Shown one piece after another: positions 32,731-46,341 of a stretch of DNA of 46,341 nt. Position numbers and translations under genes: made by a program. The DNA is from Deltaproteobacteria bacterium (GTDB lineage Bacteria; Lernaellota; Lernaellaia; JACKCT01). How positions within the stretch are numbered: position 1 is the stretch's first letter; the number at the start of each line of letters is the position of its first letter. The notes beneath the pieces were generated by a model. The model was not told the DNA's origin and ran no database searches. It saw only the letters and a list, made by a program, of their open reading frames with translations. The stretch covers positions 1 through 46,341 of the forward strand of contig JADLEX010000013.1 in assembly GCA_020845895.1 (NCBI GenBank), written 5' to 3'.

Positions 32731-35700
32731 ATGTCTCGAACGGGATTGGTCCGGGCGTACTTGGTCATGGCGATGTTCACGCTGGCCGCGTGTGTGTGCG
32801 GCTGCGGCGGCGGCGAGACGCAGGATTCCGGCCGCGTCGGGGGAGGCGGCGACGACGACGCGGACGAGGACGACGACTACACCGCCCCGCCGGATGACGA
32901 CGTGAACGACGACGATGTCGACGACGACACGCAGGACGACGACACGCAGGACGACGACACGCAGGACGACGACATCGACGACGATACCGGCGATGACGAC
33001 ACCACGGCGACCACCACGACCACGACGATCGTCACCACCACCAGCACCACGACCACCACGAGCCTGCACTTAGAGACGGAACGCGTCGCCGGCGGATCGC
33101 CGGGCAGGGACGGCCTCGACCTCGCGGTCAACTGGGACGGCCTGATTTACGCGGCGGCGATCAAGGGGCGTTCGCTCATCGCGTACAAGTGGGAAGAGGG
33201 ATTCGGGGTGAACGCCGAGGACATCGGCGTGATCGCCGAGGCGCCGTCGATCGTGTCGCTCGGTCTCGGCGGGCAGACCACAATCGTCCACATTGCGTAC
33301 CGCAATCCCGTCGAAAAATCGCTCGACCTCATCCGCGACGTCTGGAGCACGCGCGTGCACGAAACGGTCGACGCGAACGGTGAGATCGGCTCCGACATCG
33401 CGATGGCGGGCGATACGAACGGCGACCTGCACATCGCGTATTACGAAGAACTGAACGGCGACCTGCGCTACGCGACCAACAAGAGCGGCACCTGGTCGAT
33501 CCAGAATGTGCTATCCGAGGGCAACGTCGGCCGCCATGTGGACCTCGCACTCGACTCCGAGGGCTTCGCGCACATCAGTTGCTACGACGCGACGAACGGC
33601 CGGCTGCTGCACCTCAGCAACGAAACCGGCACATGGGCGGCGCAGCAGGCCGACCTGACCACGTGGAACGTCGGATGGGACACATCCATCGCGATCGGAC
33701 GCGACGATGCGGTCTATATCGCGTACTACGATGTCTCGTTCGAGCGGCTCAAACTGACCAAACGGGCGGCGGGCTCTGGCGTTTGGTCGTCGCAGACCGT
33801 CGTGAACGAACCGGCCCGCGATCCGGGCGTGATCGTGGACGGTGACGGGCACGTCCAACTGGGATATCGCACCGAGACGGCTCTGGGATTCGCCACGAAT
33901 CAGAGTGGTTCGTGGGAGTTCGACGACCTCGAAGCGGGGACCTTCGGTCCGCTGGCCGTTGCGCGGGCCCCCGACGCGACGCCGGCGTACCTGTACCACG
34001 ATCAGGCCACGGGCGAACTCAGGGCGGGCGTCTATCGGCGAAAGCTCGTGACCGAAACGGTGGCCGAGGTCGGCACCGTCGCGCGGCCGATGATCACAGA
34101 CCTCGACGACAACGGCATGGCACAGATCGTGTACCTCGACAGCACCGGCCCCGAGGACTTTTTCATCAATTTCGCGCAGCGGGTCGGCGAGGACAGTTGG
34201 GGCGTCGCCACGGTCGTCGACGAGGCGTCGGGGCACGTCTCGCCCGACTGGATTCACAACACGGACGGCCGCCGCCACGTGGTGCTCGGAATGCACGAGC
34301 GGCACACGCTGTCGTGTCTCGGCGATTCGGAGTACGTGGCCGATGTCGCCATCGGTTCGGAAAACGACCCCACATGGGATGTCGAAATCCTTCTGGCCGA
34401 CCACGAGCACTACTTCGAGTCGCGACCCGTCGTGATCGCGAACGGCGACATCTTCCACGTCGCCTACGTCGAATATGACTGCGTGAACAACACGTCGCGG
34501 CTGATGTATCGGCTGCGCGACAACGGCGTGGACACCGACGAGGAGGTCGCCACGCTGGTCGGCCCGATTACGCGCTACGACATGGCGGTCCACAACGGTA
34601 CGCCGATGATCGTGTACGAAGACGACAACAAGCCGCGCTATGCCTACCGCACGGGGATCGGGTGGCTCAAGGCCCTCATGCACGACTACTCCGGCATGTT
34701 CATGGCCGATCGTCCTTCGATCGCCGTCGATTCGGACGGCGCGTTCCACGCGATCTACTACATCTACAGCGACGTGCGTTTCATCCACAGCGTCTACAAC
34801 GAGGACCTCGACGAGTGGCAGCCCGAGGACCCCGATCTGCCTTACGACTCGATCACGAATTCCTACGACCTGTTCTTCGACCGGCACGACCACATGCATG
34901 TCGTGTTCAGCGGACCCACCGAAGCCTTCTACATGACGGACTCCGAAGGTCCGTGGCTCTACCAGAAGGTCGGCGATCAGGGTGGTTTCGGTAATTGGGC
35001 CGACGGCGTTGTGGACGAGGCGGGGCATTTCCACATCGGCTACTACGGAGTCGACGAGGCCAGCTCGCCCAAAATCCTCAGCTACGTGACCGACGCCGGG
35101 CGCGAGTGGACGAGCTGGATCATGGACGACACCGGTTCGACCGTGCGCTGCGCCGATGTCGCATGGGACGACGGCGATGGATCGGCGATTGTTTACGGCG
35201 ACAGCGCCGACGGGGGCGTCACCTACGCGGCCAAACCCGGCGCGGCGTGGCAGTTCGCCCAGGCCGTTTCCGGTTCGGCGGCCGCGTTTTCGGTTGCCCT
35301 CGCGTTCGAGTCCGACGCCACGCCGCACGTCGCATTCGCCGTGGACGGCGATGTCGGCCACGCGACGCGGGACCCCAACTGGAACGATGAGACGATCGCC
35401 TCGCCGGGCGACGTCCCTGTCGCAATCGCGGTGGACGGAAACGATGTGCCGCATGTCGCCTTCGTGGACGGGACCGCGCTCAAACACTGGACACCCGCGG
35501 ATGGTCTGGAGACGATCGCCGGCGTTTCGGCGTTTTCCCCGGTGGCCATCGCCGCACGTGGGACCTCGCTGGTCGGCATCGCCTTCCGCGAGACCGGCAC
35601 CTTCGACGCGAAGATCGCCTGGCTCGTCGGGTCCGACTGGCAGATCGAACCGATCGACACCTCGCCCTCCGACGGCTCGACGATCGACCTGTTCATCGGA

Positions 35701-36057
35701 ACCGACAACATCCCCCGCGCGGCGTACACCGACGCCGACACGGGGCTGATCCGCTACGCGTATAAGGATGGCGCGTCGTGGACGAGCGAGGGCGTGGCGT
35801 CGTTCCTGAGCGAGCCGACGCGCGCGGCCATCGTGTATGCCCCCATCGCCGAACTCGCGCATCTGGCGTTTTACGACGCCGACGATACATCGTTCGGTTA
35901 CGCCATCCGCGCGAACGACACGTGGCAGTCCTATATCGTGGACGACGTCGGCGATGCGGGAGATTCGGTGACGCTCGCCATCGACGACGCGAACGTCATC
36001 CACGCGGCATACCTGGCGGGCGGCGCGGTTTTTTACGGATACCTCTCGCTCGAGTGA
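32731..36057 (+). CDS. Giant acidic- and Thr-linker lipoprotein with beta-propeller-like repeats
   Basis: A 1108-residue predicted lipoprotein. The signal peptide MSRTGLVRAYLVMAMFTLAAC gives Cys21. A linker of about 95 residues follows: acidic (GGDDDADEDDDY, then DDDTQ repeats) and then Thr-rich (TTATTTTTTIVTTTSTTTTT). The rest is built of repeats of about 45 residues with consensus hIAYYD, a variable loop, then LRYATN, GTW and a V strand. Examples are LHIAYYEELNGDLRYATN, AHISCYDATNGRLLHLSN and VYIAYYDVSFERLKL. That pattern fits beta-propeller blades of the sialidase/WD-like secreted type. No catalytic motif is visible. A GGGTGGAG site fits ATG 32731 rather than GTG 32719. I infer a surface-displayed binding or scaffold protein. 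Confidence 0.82.
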   Translation: MSRTGLVRAYLVMAMFTLAACVCGCGGGETQDSGRVGGGGDDDADEDDDYTAPPDDDVNDDDVDDDTQDDDTQDDDTQDDDIDDDTGDDDTTATTTTTTIVTTTSTTTTTSLHLETERVAGGSPGRDGLDLAVNWDGLIYAAAIKGRSLIAYKWEEGFGVNAEDIGVIAEAPSIVSLGLGGQTTIVHIAYRNPVEKSLDLIRDVWSTRVHETVDANGEIGSDIAMAGDTNGDLHIAYYEELNGDLRYATNKSGTWSIQNVLSEGNVGRHVDLALDSEGFAHISCYDATNGRLLHLSNETGTWAAQQADLTTWNVGWDTSIAIGRDDAVYIAYYDVSFERLKLTKRAAGSGVWSSQTVVNEPARDPGVIVDGDGHVQLGYRTETALGFATNQSGSWEFDDLEAGTFGPLAVARAPDATPAYLYHDQATGELRAGVYRRKLVTETVAEVGTVARPMITDLDDNGMAQIVYLDSTGPEDFFINFAQRVGEDSWGVATVVDEASGHVSPDWIHNTDGRRHVVLGMHERHTLSCLGDSEYVADVAIGSENDPTWDVEILLADHEHYFESRPVVIANGDIFHVAYVEYDCVNNTSRLMYRLRDNGVDTDEEVATLVGPITRYDMAVHNGTPMIVYEDDNKPRYAYRTGIGWLKALMHDYSGMFMADRPSIAVDSDGAFHAIYYIYSDVRFIHSVYNEDLDEWQPEDPDLPYDSITNSYDLFFDRHDHMHVVFSGPTEAFYMTDSEGPWLYQKVGDQGGFGNWADGVVDEAGHFHIGYYGVDEASSPKILSYVTDAGREWTSWIMDDTGSTVRCADVAWDDGDGSAIVYGDSADGGVTYAAKPGAAWQFAQAVSGSAAAFSVALAFESDATPHVAFAVDGDVGHATRDPNWNDETIASPGDVPVAIAVDGNDVPHVAFVDGTALKHWTPADGLETIAGVSAFSPVAIAARGTSLVGIAFRETGTFDAKIAWLVGSDWQIEPIDTSPSDGSTIDLFIGTDNIPRAAYTDADTGLIRYAYKDGASWTSEGVASFLSEPTRAAIVYAPIAELAHLAFYDADDTSFGYAIRANDTWQSYIVDDVGDAGDSVTLAIDDANVIHAAYLAGGAVFYGYLSLE
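32920..32964 (+). repeat. 15-bp perfect tandem repeat, three units (DDDTQ)
   Basis: Three exact copies of GACGACGACACGCAG encode DDDTQ in the lipoprotein linker. Identity at the DNA level indicates recent expansion or conversion. The frame is kept for any copy number. Confidence 0.9.
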
Positions 36058-39004: not shown

Positions 39005-39595
39005 TCAACGCGACCGATCCACACGCAAGTTCGCGTGGACGATCGTTCCAGCTCGCGGAACACCCGTGCCCTCGATCACCCGCGCGACTCCCGCGAACCG
39101 CAACTCCCGGCGCACCTCGTCATCCGCGTTCGCGGGCAAGAGCGCGTCCACCGGACCGCGCGGCCAAAGCCCCGTCAGCAGACGCACGCGGCGCAGCTCG
39201 TCTTCACTCGGCAAAGCCGGGAGCACGAGGCGAATTCGCGTGAAGTGATACGCGATGATCGGCGCGGACTGAGGATTGAAGACGTGCGGCCCCGTCACCA
39301 GCCACACCGCCGCGCCCGCGATGCGAAAGTTCTCGACCACGTCCAGCAGATCGTGCCAGCGCGTGGGGGCATGCCCCGAAAAAACGACGAGACCCGGCTT
39401 CGCCTGCGCGAGATCCTCGGCGAGGTGGATCGCGTGTTCGCGCAAAGGCTCGGCATCAGGGGCGACCTCGCCCCACGGCGTGCCGTCTTCGCCGGGACGC
39501 ACGACGCGCCACTCGATGGTGCGGGCCTCGGCCCCGAGCGCAAGACGCATGCGCGCGCGCACCCGGTGGACCCACGTCGCGGCGGGGACATTCAA
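39005..39595 (-). CDS. Hypothetical protein coupled to PseG-like gene; Cys-less radical-SAM-like
   Basis: A 196-residue protein starting at a TTG whose codon overlaps the TGA of the upstream PseG-like gene (TTGA), indicating translational coupling. Its middle, LVVFSGHAPTRWHDLLDVVE then AAVWLVTGPHVFN and FTRIRLVLPALPSE, has the strand-helix rhythm of radical-SAM barrels after the cluster-binding loop. However, there is not a single Cys, so the [4Fe-4S] site is absent. Alternatively it is an unrelated alpha/beta fold. I cannot name a family. The first ATG inside (MRLALGAEART, 39550) is another possible start. The context is sugar modification. Confidence 0.5.
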   Translation of the reverse strand: MNVPAATWVHRVRARMRLALGAEARTIEWRVVRPGEDGTPWGEVAPDAEPLREHAIHLAEDLAQAKPGLVVFSGHAPTRWHDLLDVVENFRIAGAAVWLVTGPHVFNPQSAPIIAYHFTRIRLVLPALPSEDELRRVRLLTGLWPRGPVDALLPANADDEVRRELRFAGVARVIEGTGVPRAGTIVHANLRVDRSR

Positions 39596-40596
39596 TGGCG
39601 ATCCGGCGGCTTGACCGGCAAGGCGAGGTACTTGGCGAGTTTCTCGAAGAGCCGTTCGGCTCCGGCGCCGTCGATGAACCGCGTCCCGAGCTGCGTCATG
39701 CGGTCGCGGGCGCGCGTGCTCGTCAGCAACAGGTCGAGGCGCGATGCCGTTTCGCCGTCGGGCGAGGCCCAACCGCAGCCCAGCTCGGCCATGGCGCGCA
39801 GGTGGGGATCGTCGCTCGGGTACAGTGCGGGCACGCCTCGGCACGCGAGTTCAAGCGCGGTCCAGCGCGCGGCGCACACGGCGACCTGCGCGCCGGTGAT
39901 CGCGCCGATGACCCCCGCTTCGCCGGTGAGCACCCGCGCGGGACGTCCGGTGCGCGCGAGCGCCTCGGCCACGCCTCGGGCATCGACACCGGGAGCGGCG
40001 ACGGTGTCGATCTCGAAGGCCGATTTCGCGCCCGCCACGAGCGATGCGAGTCGCTCCCACGCGGCAATGTCGGCGTATGCACCGGCGGCGACCAACAGAC
40101 GCGGCGGCGCGCCCTCGGGCGGCGGGTCGGGCGTCATCGCCCGCGCAATGTCGGCGCGGATCGGCGCGAAGCGCGCTCCCAACACCAGCCGCGCCTCGGC
40201 GGTCGCCACCGCCCCGGCGAGCGGCGCGTCAGCGTTGGGATTCACGAACGCGGTGGCGGCGACGTAGGCCGGGTTGCGGTCGGCGATCACCGCGAACGGC
40301 ATGCGATCGAGCACGTGGCGCAGCCGCGCGAAATCGACCGTGCCAAACTCCGCGTCGTCCACGATCACGGCATCCTCGCCGCGCGCGAGAGCCGCGAGTT
40401 CGTCCACCGCCTCGACACCGGTCGCCTCCGAAGCGGACACCGGGAAATCGATGTCCGATGCGCCCTCGGGGAGCGAACCCGCGACGACGAAGCGCGATTC
40501 GACACCCATTGCCCGGGCGGCCTCGGCGAGCGGCACGCTTCGCCACCATCGCCGCAGGCTCGAATTCGGCCCGGCGCTGACACGAAAAATGATCAC
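39592..40596 (-). CDS. PseG/SpsG-like GT-B-fold nucleotide-sugar protein
   Basis: A 334-residue protein whose layout resembles PseG/SpsG, UDP-sugar hydrolases or transferases of surface sugar pathways. The opening VIIFRVSAGPNSSLRRWWRS matches the family entry strand, but the usual GxGHxxR motif is altered to SSLRRWWRS, removing the expected catalytic His. The C-terminal part has AAITGAQ-like text (VIGAITGAQVAVCAARWTAL) followed by ELACRGVPALYPSDD, typical of the C-terminal Rossmann half. The start is a GTG at 40596; no close ribosome site is visible and ATG 40647 is possible. It is divergent from the SpsF-like gene and overlaps the gene downstream. The partnership with SpsF is known in Bacillus; activity here is doubtful. 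Confidence 0.65.
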   Translation of the reverse strand: MIIFRVSAGPNSSLRRWWRSVPLAEAARAMGVESRFVVAGSLPEGASDIDFPVSASEATGVEAVDELAALARGEDAVIVDDAEFGTVDFARLRHVLDRMPFAVIADRNPAYVAATAFVNPNADAPLAGAVATAEARLVLGARFAPIRADIARAMTPDPPPEGAPPRLLVAAGAYADIAAWERLASLVAGAKSAFEIDTVAAPGVDARGVAEALARTGRPARVLTGEAGVIGAITGAQVAVCAARWTALELACRGVPALYPSDDPHLRAMAELGCGWASPDGETASRLDLLLTSTRARDRMTQLGTRFIDGAGAERLFEKLAKYLALPVKPPDRH

Positions 40597-40707
40597 GAGA
40601 AAACTGCCCCTCGGAACGGCGTGAACGCGAGCCTTGACATTAAACATGCACTGAACGACACGAGCAAGGTACGAATCGCCGCGCCGCGCGGGCCCGGCGG
40701 GGGAGAG

Positions 40708-41799
40708 ATGAAAATGCAAAAAGGAATGAAAATCGGCGCCGTCATTCAGGCGCGCGTGGGTTCGTCGCGTTTTCCGCGAAAGGTCTTCGCCGACATTTGC
40801 GGCCGTCCCCTGCTCGGCCACATTCTCGATCGCCTGAAGCGCTGTACGACATTGGACCGCATCGTCATCGCCACATCCACGCAGCCCGGCGACGCCGAGC
40901 TGCTCGATTTCGCCAAAGCCGAGGGCGTGGAGTCCTTCGCGGGCGACGAAAACGACGTGCAGAAGCGCTACATCGACGCTGCCCAGAAGTTCGGCCTCGA
41001 CATCGTCGTGCGCATCTGCGGCGACTCGCCCTTCATCGATCCGAAGATGACCGACCGCCTCGTGACCGAGCTGGTCGCCGCGAACGCGGACTACGCCGAG
41101 CCCGATCCCGAGATCCCCGGTGCGTACGAGGGCGCGGAGGCCGTGACGCTTGCAGCCCTCCTTCGCGCGCGCGAACTCGGCGACAACGGCCCCGACCGCG
41201 AGCACGTGACGTGGTACATCCGGCGGCACGAAGCCGAGTTCAAGGTGATCCACCCCAAACCAGACCCCGCGACGCACGGCAAATGGCGGCTTTCCATCGA
41301 CACCCGCGCCGACCTGGATTTCGTGCGCTCGGTGTTCGGCACGCTCTACAAGCCCGGTGACGTGTTCGACGCCGCCGCGCTCGCCGCGCTTCTGCGCGAG
41401 CAGCCGGTCTTGGCCCTCCTCAATGCGCACGTGCGTCAGAAGCCCGCCGACCTGACCAGCCCGCACGTCGGCCTCTACGTCGAGACCGATCACGACATCT
41501 CGGCGGCGGTGTCGCTCGCACGGCGGCTGAACGAGTGGCACCACTGCGGGGTGCGTTTCCTGGGTCCCTTCGACGAATCGAAGCGCGTCTCGTTCGCGGC
41601 GATGGGCTACGGCGCCCAGCGCCTCGCGTCGCTCGCCGACGAAGCGGCGCTGGCGGGCGCGATCGAGCACGGCCGACTCGCGGCGATCGTCGCCCCGGCC
41701 CGCGTGCTGGAGCGCGCGACGCGCCACGACTGGCCGCTGCCCATGCTCTCCACGCTGGCGACGCCGGAGCAGATCGCCTCGGCGGCGCGCAGCCATTAG
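40708..41799 (+). CDS. SpsF-like cytidylyltransferase with C-terminal extension
   Basis: A 363-residue protein. Residues about 8-245 are a CMP-sugar/SpsF-type cytidylyltransferase: [20 protein letters not shown] (11-30) is the nucleotide-binding signature, and VRICGDSPFIDP (101-112) contains the metal-binding Asp. SIDTRADLDFVR follows as usual. The family normally ends near 245, but here about 115 further residues (LTSPHVGLYVETDHDIS and on) form an additional domain with an alpha/beta rhythm. The GGGGGAG site fits ATG 40708 or 40714. The gene is followed after 4 nt by a membrane glycosyltransferase-like gene. I infer synthesis of an activated surface sugar; the role of the extra domain is unknown. 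Confidence 0.8.
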   Translation: MKMQKGMKIGAVIQARVGSSRFPRKVFADICGRPLLGHILDRLKRCTTLDRIVIATSTQPGDAELLDFAKAEGVESFAGDENDVQKRYIDAAQKFGLDIVVRICGDSPFIDPKMTDRLVTELVAANADYAEPDPEIPGAYEGAEAVTLAALLRARELGDNGPDREHVTWYIRRHEAEFKVIHPKPDPATHGKWRLSIDTRADLDFVRSVFGTLYKPGDVFDAAALAALLREQPVLALLNAHVRQKPADLTSPHVGLYVETDHDISAAVSLARRLNEWHHCGVRFLGPFDESKRVSFAAMGYGAQRLASLADEAALAGAIEHGRLAAIVAPARVLERATRHDWPLPMLSTLATPEQIASAARSH

Positions 41800-41803
41800 C
41801 GCG

Positions 41804-43294
41804 ATGACGGGCGCGGCGCTCCTCGATGCATCGACCGATGACCGGCGCATCGCGCTCGCGGTGTTCGCCACGGCGTGGGTCTCCTACGCCTACTTCCAGC
41901 ACGGCGGCAACTGGGGCGGCAACGCGCTGTGGGACCTCGTGCGCGCCGTGGTCGAACGCGGCACGATCCGCATCGACGACTTCGTCGCCAACACCGGCGA
42001 CTGGTCGAGCTTCGGCGGGCATTTCTACGCCGCCAAGAACCCCGGCGCGGGGCTCATCGCCGTGCCCGTGTACGCGCTCTATCGCCTGATCGTCCCCGGC
42101 GCGTTCGCGACCTTCGCGTCGGGGCTCGCGGCGGTCCATCTCGTCACCGCGTTCTCGTGGTCGCTCGTCTCGGCCATCGCCGCCGCGCTGCTCTATCTTT
42201 GGCTTCGCCGCGCGTTTTCGCCCGGCGCGTCGCTCGCCGCGACGGCTGCTTCGGCGCTCGGCTCGATCCTGTTTCCGTATTCATCCGCCGCGAACGCGCA
42301 GGTGCTCGTGGCCGCGTGTTACGTGATCGCCGCGTACGCCGTCTCGCGTTCGGGCGAGGAACGCGGTGGCGCGTGGTGCGCCCTCGCGGGATGCGCGGTC
42401 GGCTACGCCGAATGCACCGAGCCCATCGCGCTCATCGGCATCGTCGCGATCATGGCGATGATGGCCGTGCGCAGGACGCCCGTGCGGGGATGGATGTGGT
42501 TCTTCGCGGGCGCGGTCCCGACCGCCCTGCTCCTCGGCGCGTACAACCTCGCGGCCTTCGGCTCACCCTTCGTCACGAGCTACGCGTACCAGAACCCGGT
42601 CTTCAACACGCCGGGTGCGGTCATGGGCGTCTTCGTCCCGCCGTCGCTGTCGGTGCTCGCGGCCATCACGGTGCTGCCCGTGCGCGGCCTGCTGTGGATG
42701 AGCCCGGTCTTCGCCATCGCGCCGCTGGGAATCGCGCTGCTCTGGCGAAACCGCGACTGGCGCGACATCGCCCTCGTCATCACCGTGATCGCCCTCGCGA
42801 GCCTGCTGTTCAACATATCCTACGCCACGTGGCACGGCGGATGGTGCGTGGGGCCGCGCCTGCTGATGCCGGCCATGCCGTTTTTCGCGGCGGCGATCGC
42901 GCCCGTGTGGGACCGATTCGCCGCGACGCGCGCGCCCATCGCTTTGCTGGTCCTGATCGGCGTCGCCATCCAACTCATGGTCAGCGCGGTCAACCCGTGG
43001 GCGCCGCAAATGGCCGAGGTCACGAATCCGCTCGCCCAGTACATCTGGACGAATATTTCGGCGGGGCAGACTTCGATCAACAACTATCCGATGTTCGGGG
43101 AAACGCCGTCCCTGTTCGCCGCGCGGGCGTGGTCGCTCGTATCGTTCGAGGAGCGCTTCGCCGCCTACAACCTCGGCGAGTTCGTCGGCCTGCCCGGGCG
43201 CGCGTCGCTGGTGCCGCTGCTCGCCGCGTGGGTCGGGGCGGCGGTCAGGGTCCGAAGTCCGTTGCGGCGGCTTCTTTCGGCTTCGCGCGGCTGA
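41804..43294 (+). CDS. Polytopic membrane protein, GT-C glycosyltransferase-like
   Basis: A 496-residue membrane protein with about eleven hydrophobic segments. The first long outer loop holds GGNWGGNALWDLVRAVVERG followed by a conserved-looking IDDFVANTGDWSSFGGHFYA, acidic and aromatic residues in the position where GT-C enzymes bind their sugar donor. A second loop carries YATWHGGWCVGPRLLMPAMP, which resembles the dolichyl-phosphate-mannose transferase-like (DUF2029/PMT_2) loops with a WHGGW motif. It is coupled to the SpsF-like gene (4 nt). I infer transfer of a sugar in the membrane. Its 3' end overlaps by 50 nt with the convergent EamA gene. The exact family is unsure. Confidence 0.7.
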   Translation: MTGAALLDASTDDRRIALAVFATAWVSYAYFQHGGNWGGNALWDLVRAVVERGTIRIDDFVANTGDWSSFGGHFYAAKNPGAGLIAVPVYALYRLIVPGAFATFASGLAAVHLVTAFSWSLVSAIAAALLYLWLRRAFSPGASLAATAASALGSILFPYSSAANAQVLVAACYVIAAYAVSRSGEERGGAWCALAGCAVGYAECTEPIALIGIVAIMAMMAVRRTPVRGWMWFFAGAVPTALLLGAYNLAAFGSPFVTSYAYQNPVFNTPGAVMGVFVPPSLSVLAAITVLPVRGLLWMSPVFAIAPLGIALLWRNRDWRDIALVITVIALASLLFNISYATWHGGWCVGPRLLMPAMPFFAAAIAPVWDRFAATRAPIALLVLIGVAIQLMVSAVNPWAPQMAEVTNPLAQYIWTNISAGQTSINNYPMFGETPSLFAARAWSLVSFEERFAAYNLGEFVGLPGRASLVPLLAAWVGAAVRVRSPLRRLLSASRG

Positions 43295-46117: not shown

Positions 46118-46341
46118 ATGGATGTATTCGCGCTTCATTTTCGTGGATTATTTGCACTCGTCGCGGCGATGGCTCTTTTCGCCGCGGGGTGCGGATGCGG
46201 CGACGACGATGACGACGACGATTCGTCCGCGGACGACGATTCGGACGATGACGTGACCGACGACGACACGGGCGATGACGATGTCGCGGACGACGATACG
46301 TCGGACGACGACACGGGGGATGACGATACCGGTGATGACGA
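46118..46341 (+). CDS. Acidic-linker lipoprotein, 3' truncated by window end
   Basis: The frame at ATG 46118 reads MDVFALHFRGLFALVAAMAL then FAAGC, a lipobox with Cys25, followed by GCGDDDDDDDSSADDDSDDD and further DDDT/DDDV units running to the end of the window. A GGGGG ribosome site lies about 8 nt before the ATG. Only the signal peptide and linker are visible, so the functional domain cannot be read. It is the seventh member of the window's Asp-linker set and the linker has begun to repeat GACGACGAT-like words. Confidence 0.75.
   Translation, partial: MDVFALHFRGLFALVAAMALFAAGCGCGDDDDDDDSSADDDSDDDVTDDDTGDDDVADDDTSDDDTGDDDTGDD

Follow-up and report, generated by a model that had tools for sequence, protein, structure and literature searches.

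A PseG-like protein without its GxGH histidine, an extended SpsF-like synthetase and a candidate replacement for the PseG step in nonulosonic acid synthesis

How might a pathway to sialic-acid-like sugars proceed when the protein expected to free its amino sugar from uridine diphosphate (UDP) lacks the His of its active site? The question is raised by a 46,341-bp stretch of DNA (the window), which is one entire contig (G000:C13; JADLEX010000013.1) of the 4.98-Mb genome G000 of a Deltaproteobacteria bacterium assigned by GTDB to the Lernaellota, and in which a gene for a PseG/SpsG-like protein (39592..40596, minus strand) and one for an SpsF-like cytidylyltransferase (40708-41799, plus strand) are divergently arranged. 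A sequence-only reading of this DNA had suggested that surface sugar decoration could here depend on an unrecognised form of the SpsFG/Pse pathway that has lost some of its chemistry and shifted some to new domains. Relatives were sought in 40 other genomes, six of which belong to the same class as G000; the seven class genomes fall into the window's own family f1 (G000, G001 and G002), f2 (G003) and f3 (G004, G005 and G006). Of most use is a result from outside the window, where the f1 genomes encode, in an operon with the condensing enzyme NeuB, a candidate for the non-orthologous replacement of PseG.

The PseG-like gene starts with GTG at 40596, and its product scores 38.5 bits against TIGR03590, below the equivalog cut-off of 153.55. 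Support for its descent from PseG comes from a 28-row tree, built without four rows that were fragmentary or weak, in which the three f1 proteins group together (100/100) and are placed beside the PseG of G006 (92/80). The alignment has 32 rows, which remained of 35 open reading frames (ORFs) once two weak ones under the cut and L063, a duplicate, had been removed. In the column of the GxGH His, all 26 rows from outside f1 with a residue there have His, including 3/3 from f3, whereas Arg stands there in both f1 members whose sequence covers the site, G000 and G002; in G001 the His-containing part lies off the contig. The earlier remark that the expected His is lacking is therefore borne out. 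The G000 protein is also without both glycines of the GxGH loop, and it keeps D77 (in the 'VDS' stretch), G137, G166 and E247 (G006 numbering). The GxGH His is reported to be the catalytic residue of the Campylobacter PseG, and UDP-sugar hydrolase activity has probably been lost here. Moreover, PseG evolves fast in f1: between G000 and G001, NeuB is 74% identical and PseG only 34%, compared with 65% and 53%, respectively, between G004 and G005 of f3. The gene is nonetheless retained in all three f1 genomes and is paired with SpsF in G000 and G002.

The SpsF-like protein (363 aa) has a cytidylyltransferase core (residues 1-245; 40708..41442, plus strand) that is well defined. Pfam CTP_transf_3 matches residues 11-204 with 95 bits against a cut-off of 22.6, and the structural model, in which the predicted local distance difference test (pLDDT) score exceeds 90 for most of the core, has as its best PDB match the Leptospira cytidylyltransferase 6oew (Z 31.0, root-mean-square deviation 1.7, 233 residues aligned, residues 6-242). 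The nucleotide-binding motif IQAR..S.R...K is invariant in a 26-row alignment (A6), as are D106, E165, H166, R194 and D198. The protein is a probable CMP-nonulosonate synthetase, transferring cytidine monophosphate (CMP) to a nonulosonic acid. The only other CTP_transf_3 gene in G000 is KdsB-like, and a KdsB-like gene occurs once in each class genome, with a second, partial one in G006 (the KdsB labels were assigned by reading). Orthologues of SpsF are present in five of the seven class genomes (G000, G002, G004, G005 and G006) and were not found in G001 or G003 when the class genomes were searched. The G001 PseG begins at a contig edge, the contig excluding both its N-terminus and SpsF, so that the SpsF of this genome may lie outside the assembly. 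The G002 assembly is a draft in which frameshifts seem to occur; its SpsF (L024:9000-10053; 57% identity over residues 19-192) is split over frames in a manner resembling sequencing frameshifts and was used in pieces only.

Beyond the core lies a C-terminal extension of 118 aa (41443..41799, plus strand), close to the 115 extra residues that had been counted from the sequence alone. It is a regular feature of the orthologues, being found in 5/5 class SpsF proteins. A scan of 84,980 species genomes retrieved 44 SpsF relatives, of which 42 end within their contig; L063, which is the G006 contig itself, is 347 aa from the start of the match, and the other 41 are 226-287 aa and lack the extension. 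Since only the class proteins are long, the extension is specific to this class among the SpsF relatives examined. SpsF proteins of other phyla (L069, L070, L076, L079, L080, L090 and others) carry a different tail of ~35 residues that is rich in Lys, Glu and Leu.

What the extension resembles is, weakly, PseG. In a single hhalign comparison, a five-row profile of the extension matched a 37-row PseG profile with a probability of 31.6 and an E-value of 5e-4, against a maximum of 0.65 in 20 column shuffles; PseG also ranked first of 51 profiles, the best of the 50 others reaching 4.85. The aligned region is PseG 16-81, beginning just past the GxGH loop, which the extension is without. The model of the extension has low confidence (pLDDT ~40-75) and shows a β-α-β-α-β-α-β order compatible with a Rossmann-like half; PseG was not among the listed structural matches of the SpsF model, a list filled by matches to the core. 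A PseG-N-like domain is thus likely, if short of proven.

The genomic context assigns these two genes to a nonulosonic-acid pathway. In PMC7910423 and PMC5109656, PseG is described as removing UDP ahead of the PseI/NeuB step. Full-strength NeuB is present in six of the seven class genomes, and the same six contain Maf-type, MptE-like genes (PF01973 above cut-off); in G003 no gene matched the Maf type, the NeuB-family matches were all weak and an extended SpsF is lacking. According to published work, Maf enzymes attach nonulosonic acids to flagellin; one Maf gene adjoins FlaG and FliD in G000 and FlaG, FliD and FliS in G001. In f3 an intact PseG adjoins NeuB; formyltransferase genes lie near PseG-NeuB in G005 and G006, and in G006 the genes for SpsF, PseG, NeuB, a formyltransferase and a Maf-like protein are clustered. 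Most likely, then, both window genes belong to a nonulosonic-acid pathway that feeds Maf-type glycosylation of flagellin. A second Maf-type gene of G000, on contig C117 (L049:8381-12076), stands beside a PseB-like UDP-N-acetylglucosamine (UDP-GlcNAc) 4,6-dehydratase that scores 322 bits against TIGR03589, for which the cut-off is 408.

If the f1 PseG no longer acts, a substitute may be encoded with NeuB. All three f1 genomes have an operon (G000 C60, L047 7233-11581, on a separate contig from the window; G001, L050; G002, L052) with the order PIG-L deacetylase, formyltransferase, NeuB, HAD phosphatase and Nudix-like protein; the gene calls are by Pfam for G000 and most of G001, and by reading for G002 and the G001 PIG-L. 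In G000 a GNAT domain is in frame with NeuB (L047:8534-10180), a position taken in G001 and G002 by a second formyltransferase-like gene, hinting at acetyl and formyl versions of the same sugar. The f1 NeuB reaches neither curated cut-off, its scores being closer to that of NnaB than to that of PseI. The Nudix-like protein is present in 3/3 f1 genomes and 0/4 of the other class genomes, three of which have an intact PseG, and a search of 386 genomes at E<=0.01 gave nine matches: the three from f1, two full-length distant homologues (G125 and G364) and four weak, partial ones. Against the 24 Nudix domains of the seven class genomes it reached an hhalign probability of 91.8 (maximum of 10 shuffles, 0.92), E153 and E157 of its Nudix-like helix are invariant in 3/3, and a five-row profile with both distant homologues among its rows retrieved human NUDT22 from the PDB with an E-value of 1.5e-5, the next match being at 0.21. 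We take it to be an atypical relative of NUDT22 and a candidate UDP-sugar pyrophosphatase. The distant proteins (L155:9451-10236 and L156:9087-9902) are bacterial and NUDT22-like, and their genes lie in unrelated surroundings, that of L156 next to a PurN-like gene.

NUDT22 splits UDP-glucose into glucose-1-phosphate and uridine monophosphate (UMP; PMC10101856), and such a cleavage followed by a HAD phosphatase would give the same free sugar as PseG. NeuC was also considered as the missing hydrolase and rejected: the single Epimerase_2 gene of G000, that of G002 and the Epimerase_2 genes of G006 score as WecB, and no hydrolysing NeuC was found among them; G001 entered the count of such genes only.

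Gene content, homology, the loss of the His and presence or absence over the class are directly seen; the enzymatic steps, flagellin as the target and the part played by the relic are all inferred, and would be as follows. The NUDT22-like protein would split a UDP-sugar into the sugar-1-phosphate and UMP, the HAD phosphatase encoded after NeuB would then supply NeuB with the free sugar, and the SpsF-like protein would activate the resulting nine-carbon acid for the Maf glycosyltransferases that decorate flagellin. The PseG orthologue of f1, having lost its active-site His, would probably no longer hydrolyse UDP-sugars and would be left as a fast-evolving relic or a new partner. The SpsF extension, in turn, may be a copy of the N-terminal fold of PseG, specific to the lineage and catalytically bare, and might serve as a docking or oligomerisation module; that it interacts with the PseG-like protein through their similar folds is a guess. 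We regard the overall explanation, a CMP-nonulosonate synthetase with the PseG step replaced by Nudix and HAD and PseG reduced to a relic, as evenly poised between right and wrong. The more specific claim, that within this one class the step has passed to a NUDT22-like Nudix and HAD pair while a His-less PseG survives beside a CMP-sugar synthetase bearing a PseG-N-like domain, strikes us as possible but somewhat doubtful.

Several observations weigh against this explanation. The replacement pattern is seen in three genomes only, and the HAD protein could act at a different step. The link to NUDT22 is partly transitive, as it needs the distant homologues L155 and L156 (L156 alone gives 1.1e-4); a single f1 Nudix-like sequence or a two-row profile did not find NUDT22, and the Pfam NUDIX family was matched neither by the G000 C60 protein to an E-value of 0.01 nor by alignment A2 to 10. 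No NeuB lies within the 19 kb retrieved around L155 and L156, and none of the 44 SpsF loci contains a NUDT22-like protein. The match between the extension and PseG is, in absolute terms, weak.

Other arrangements of the same parts can be imagined. The PseG-like protein might still be a UDP-sugar hydrolase, working through another residue such as the Arg or on a changed substrate, with the Nudix and HAD proteins engaged in something else, for example recycling or clearing by-products. Its retention in 3/3 f1 genomes, its pairing with SpsF in two of them and the persistence of D77, G137, G166 and E247 speak for this, but the His is present in 26/26 relatives, PseG is evolving faster than NeuB and the G000 protein has given up both GxGH glycines as well, so that we consider this unlikely. 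It is also conceivable that the f1 pathway runs through a sugar 6-phosphate, in which case the HAD protein would be a nonulosonate-9-phosphate phosphatase, with the Nudix protein incidental. This would not account for the NUDT22-like protein that the operon also encodes and sits poorly with the PseB-like UDP-GlcNAc 4,6-dehydratase beside a Maf gene in G000; although the HAD gene directly follows NeuB in all three f1 genomes and the NeuB scores lean toward NnaB, we find it quite unlikely.

A third arrangement would have the PseG-like protein turned into a glycosyltransferase of the GT-B type or into a subunit that partners the extended SpsF, the pair then acting with the neighbouring GT-C-like protein to decorate a surface polymer rather than flagellin. 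The weak similarity of the G006 PseG to MurG could be taken in this sense, as could the divergent pair with a transferase gene downstream (GT-C-like in G000, GT2-like in G002). That transferase varies among genomes, however, and Maf genes are present in every pathway-bearing genome, which makes this very improbable. Replacement of the PseG step by the Nudix and HAD proteins is the explanation we favour, and with it the original idea of a variant SpsFG/Pse pathway with lost and relocated chemistry survives in part: the co-occurrence of NeuB and Maf in 6/7 genomes, the missing His and the fast evolution of PseG agree with it, whereas the destination it named probably does not hold. The moved chemistry has probably gone to the separate NeuB operon, in its Nudix and HAD genes, and not to the SpsF extension or to the small ORF next to PseG.

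That small ORF (39005..39595, minus strand; 196 aa) had been likened to a Cys-less radical-SAM half barrel coupled to the PseG-like gene. It does overlap the PseG-like stop (at a TTGA junction) and has no Cys, so a CX3CX2C motif is out of the question; the radical-SAM resemblance found no support. There was no match to any Pfam family to an E-value of 10 or NCBIfam family to 1, the best hit of a PDB sequence search was an unrelated dioxygenase subunit at 0.018, and hhalign against radical-SAM gave 17.6 when the best of 40 shuffles gave 18.25. A hidden Markov model (HMM) of seven local radical-SAM rows scored -1.1 bits, matched by 14 among the 215 shuffles listed (of 500 made), and the single-sequence model, of alternating strands and helices, is poor (pLDDT 47) and had no Foldseek PDB match at E<=0.001; such matches as the fold search gave carry no weight. 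With nothing above controls in Pfam, NCBIfam, PDB, hhalign, HMM or fold searches, we rejected the radical-SAM assignment. The codon-position GC content of 0.76/0.51/0.81 resembles that of coding genes, the frame on the opposite strand is also open, and no relative was found in the 40 other genomes, leaving the ORF an orphan confined to its own genome (1/41); in G001 and G002, PseG is followed instead by RDD-like and pilin-like ORFs (named by reading). The small ORF may have arisen recently as a gene, or it may be spurious, for example a frameshift shadow. Radical-SAM genes do occur within ~4 kb of SpsF in G005 (L022:11281-12330; radical SAM and SPASM by Pfam, CX3CX2C present) and G004 (L023:5139-5969; similar by reading and called without its N-terminus), and the small ORF has no detectable similarity to them.

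Elsewhere around the pair, the 111-bp region between the divergent start codons at 40596 and 40708 (40597..40707) is likely to be a promoter region. The gene that begins 4 bp past SpsF (41804..43294, plus strand) encodes a putative GT-C type membrane glycosyltransferase, a label that derives from a sub-threshold PMT_2 match (22.8 bits, cut-off 26.1); the protein also gives 32.2 bits against the LA_3751/3752 family, whose cut-off is 200. The GT-C-like partner of the sequence-only reading was not seen beside SpsF in relatives, the gene downstream of SpsF in G002 being GT2-like. At 32767-36057 and ~46190-46341 the window encodes predicted proteins with long Asp-rich stretches (DDDD-T-GDDD), and similar ones are found in the relatives L025, L053 and L054.

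Were the favoured explanation true, it would represent a second chemical route to freeing the amino sugar for sialic-acid-like acids and would point to what NUDT22-type enzymes may do in bacteria, and the class would offer a natural series, from intact to His-less PseG, for studying such a replacement. A full-text literature search found no paper joining 'Nudix' with 'nonulosonic'; among the matches listed for Nudix with pseudaminic or legionaminic acid, 'Nudix' appeared, in the text available, only in PMC8987622, on sugar 2,3-dehydratases.

It is instructive to set the locus beside better-known systems. The legionaminic acid pathway of Bacillus subtilis (PMC7439481), for which UDP-linked precursors have been proposed, shares SpsF-type, SpsG/PseG-type and NeuB-type proteins with the one here; the differences are the extra C-terminal domain of SpsF, the His-less SpsG-like protein and the location of NeuB elsewhere, with Nudix and HAD. 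The PseBCHGIF and Maf system of Campylobacter and Helicobacter has a common logic of a UDP-sugar, removal of UDP, condensation by NeuB/PseI, activation with CMP and transfer by Maf (PMC7910423 and PMC5109656), whereas in f1 the PseG step is probably replaced, a formyltransferase and a PIG-L deacetylase are added and the synthetase is SpsF-type rather than PseF-type. The profile match to human NUDT22 (PMC10101856) takes in the N-terminal region together with the initial part of the Nudix domain, but the f1 protein, a putative pyrophosphatase, is bacterial and is encoded after NeuB and HAD. Finally, an SpsF-like protein with an aldo-keto reductase domain, from a nonulosonate cluster described in PMC7371886, is likewise an SpsF-type enzyme that has gained an extra domain, a reductase in that case and probably a PseG-N-like fold in this one.

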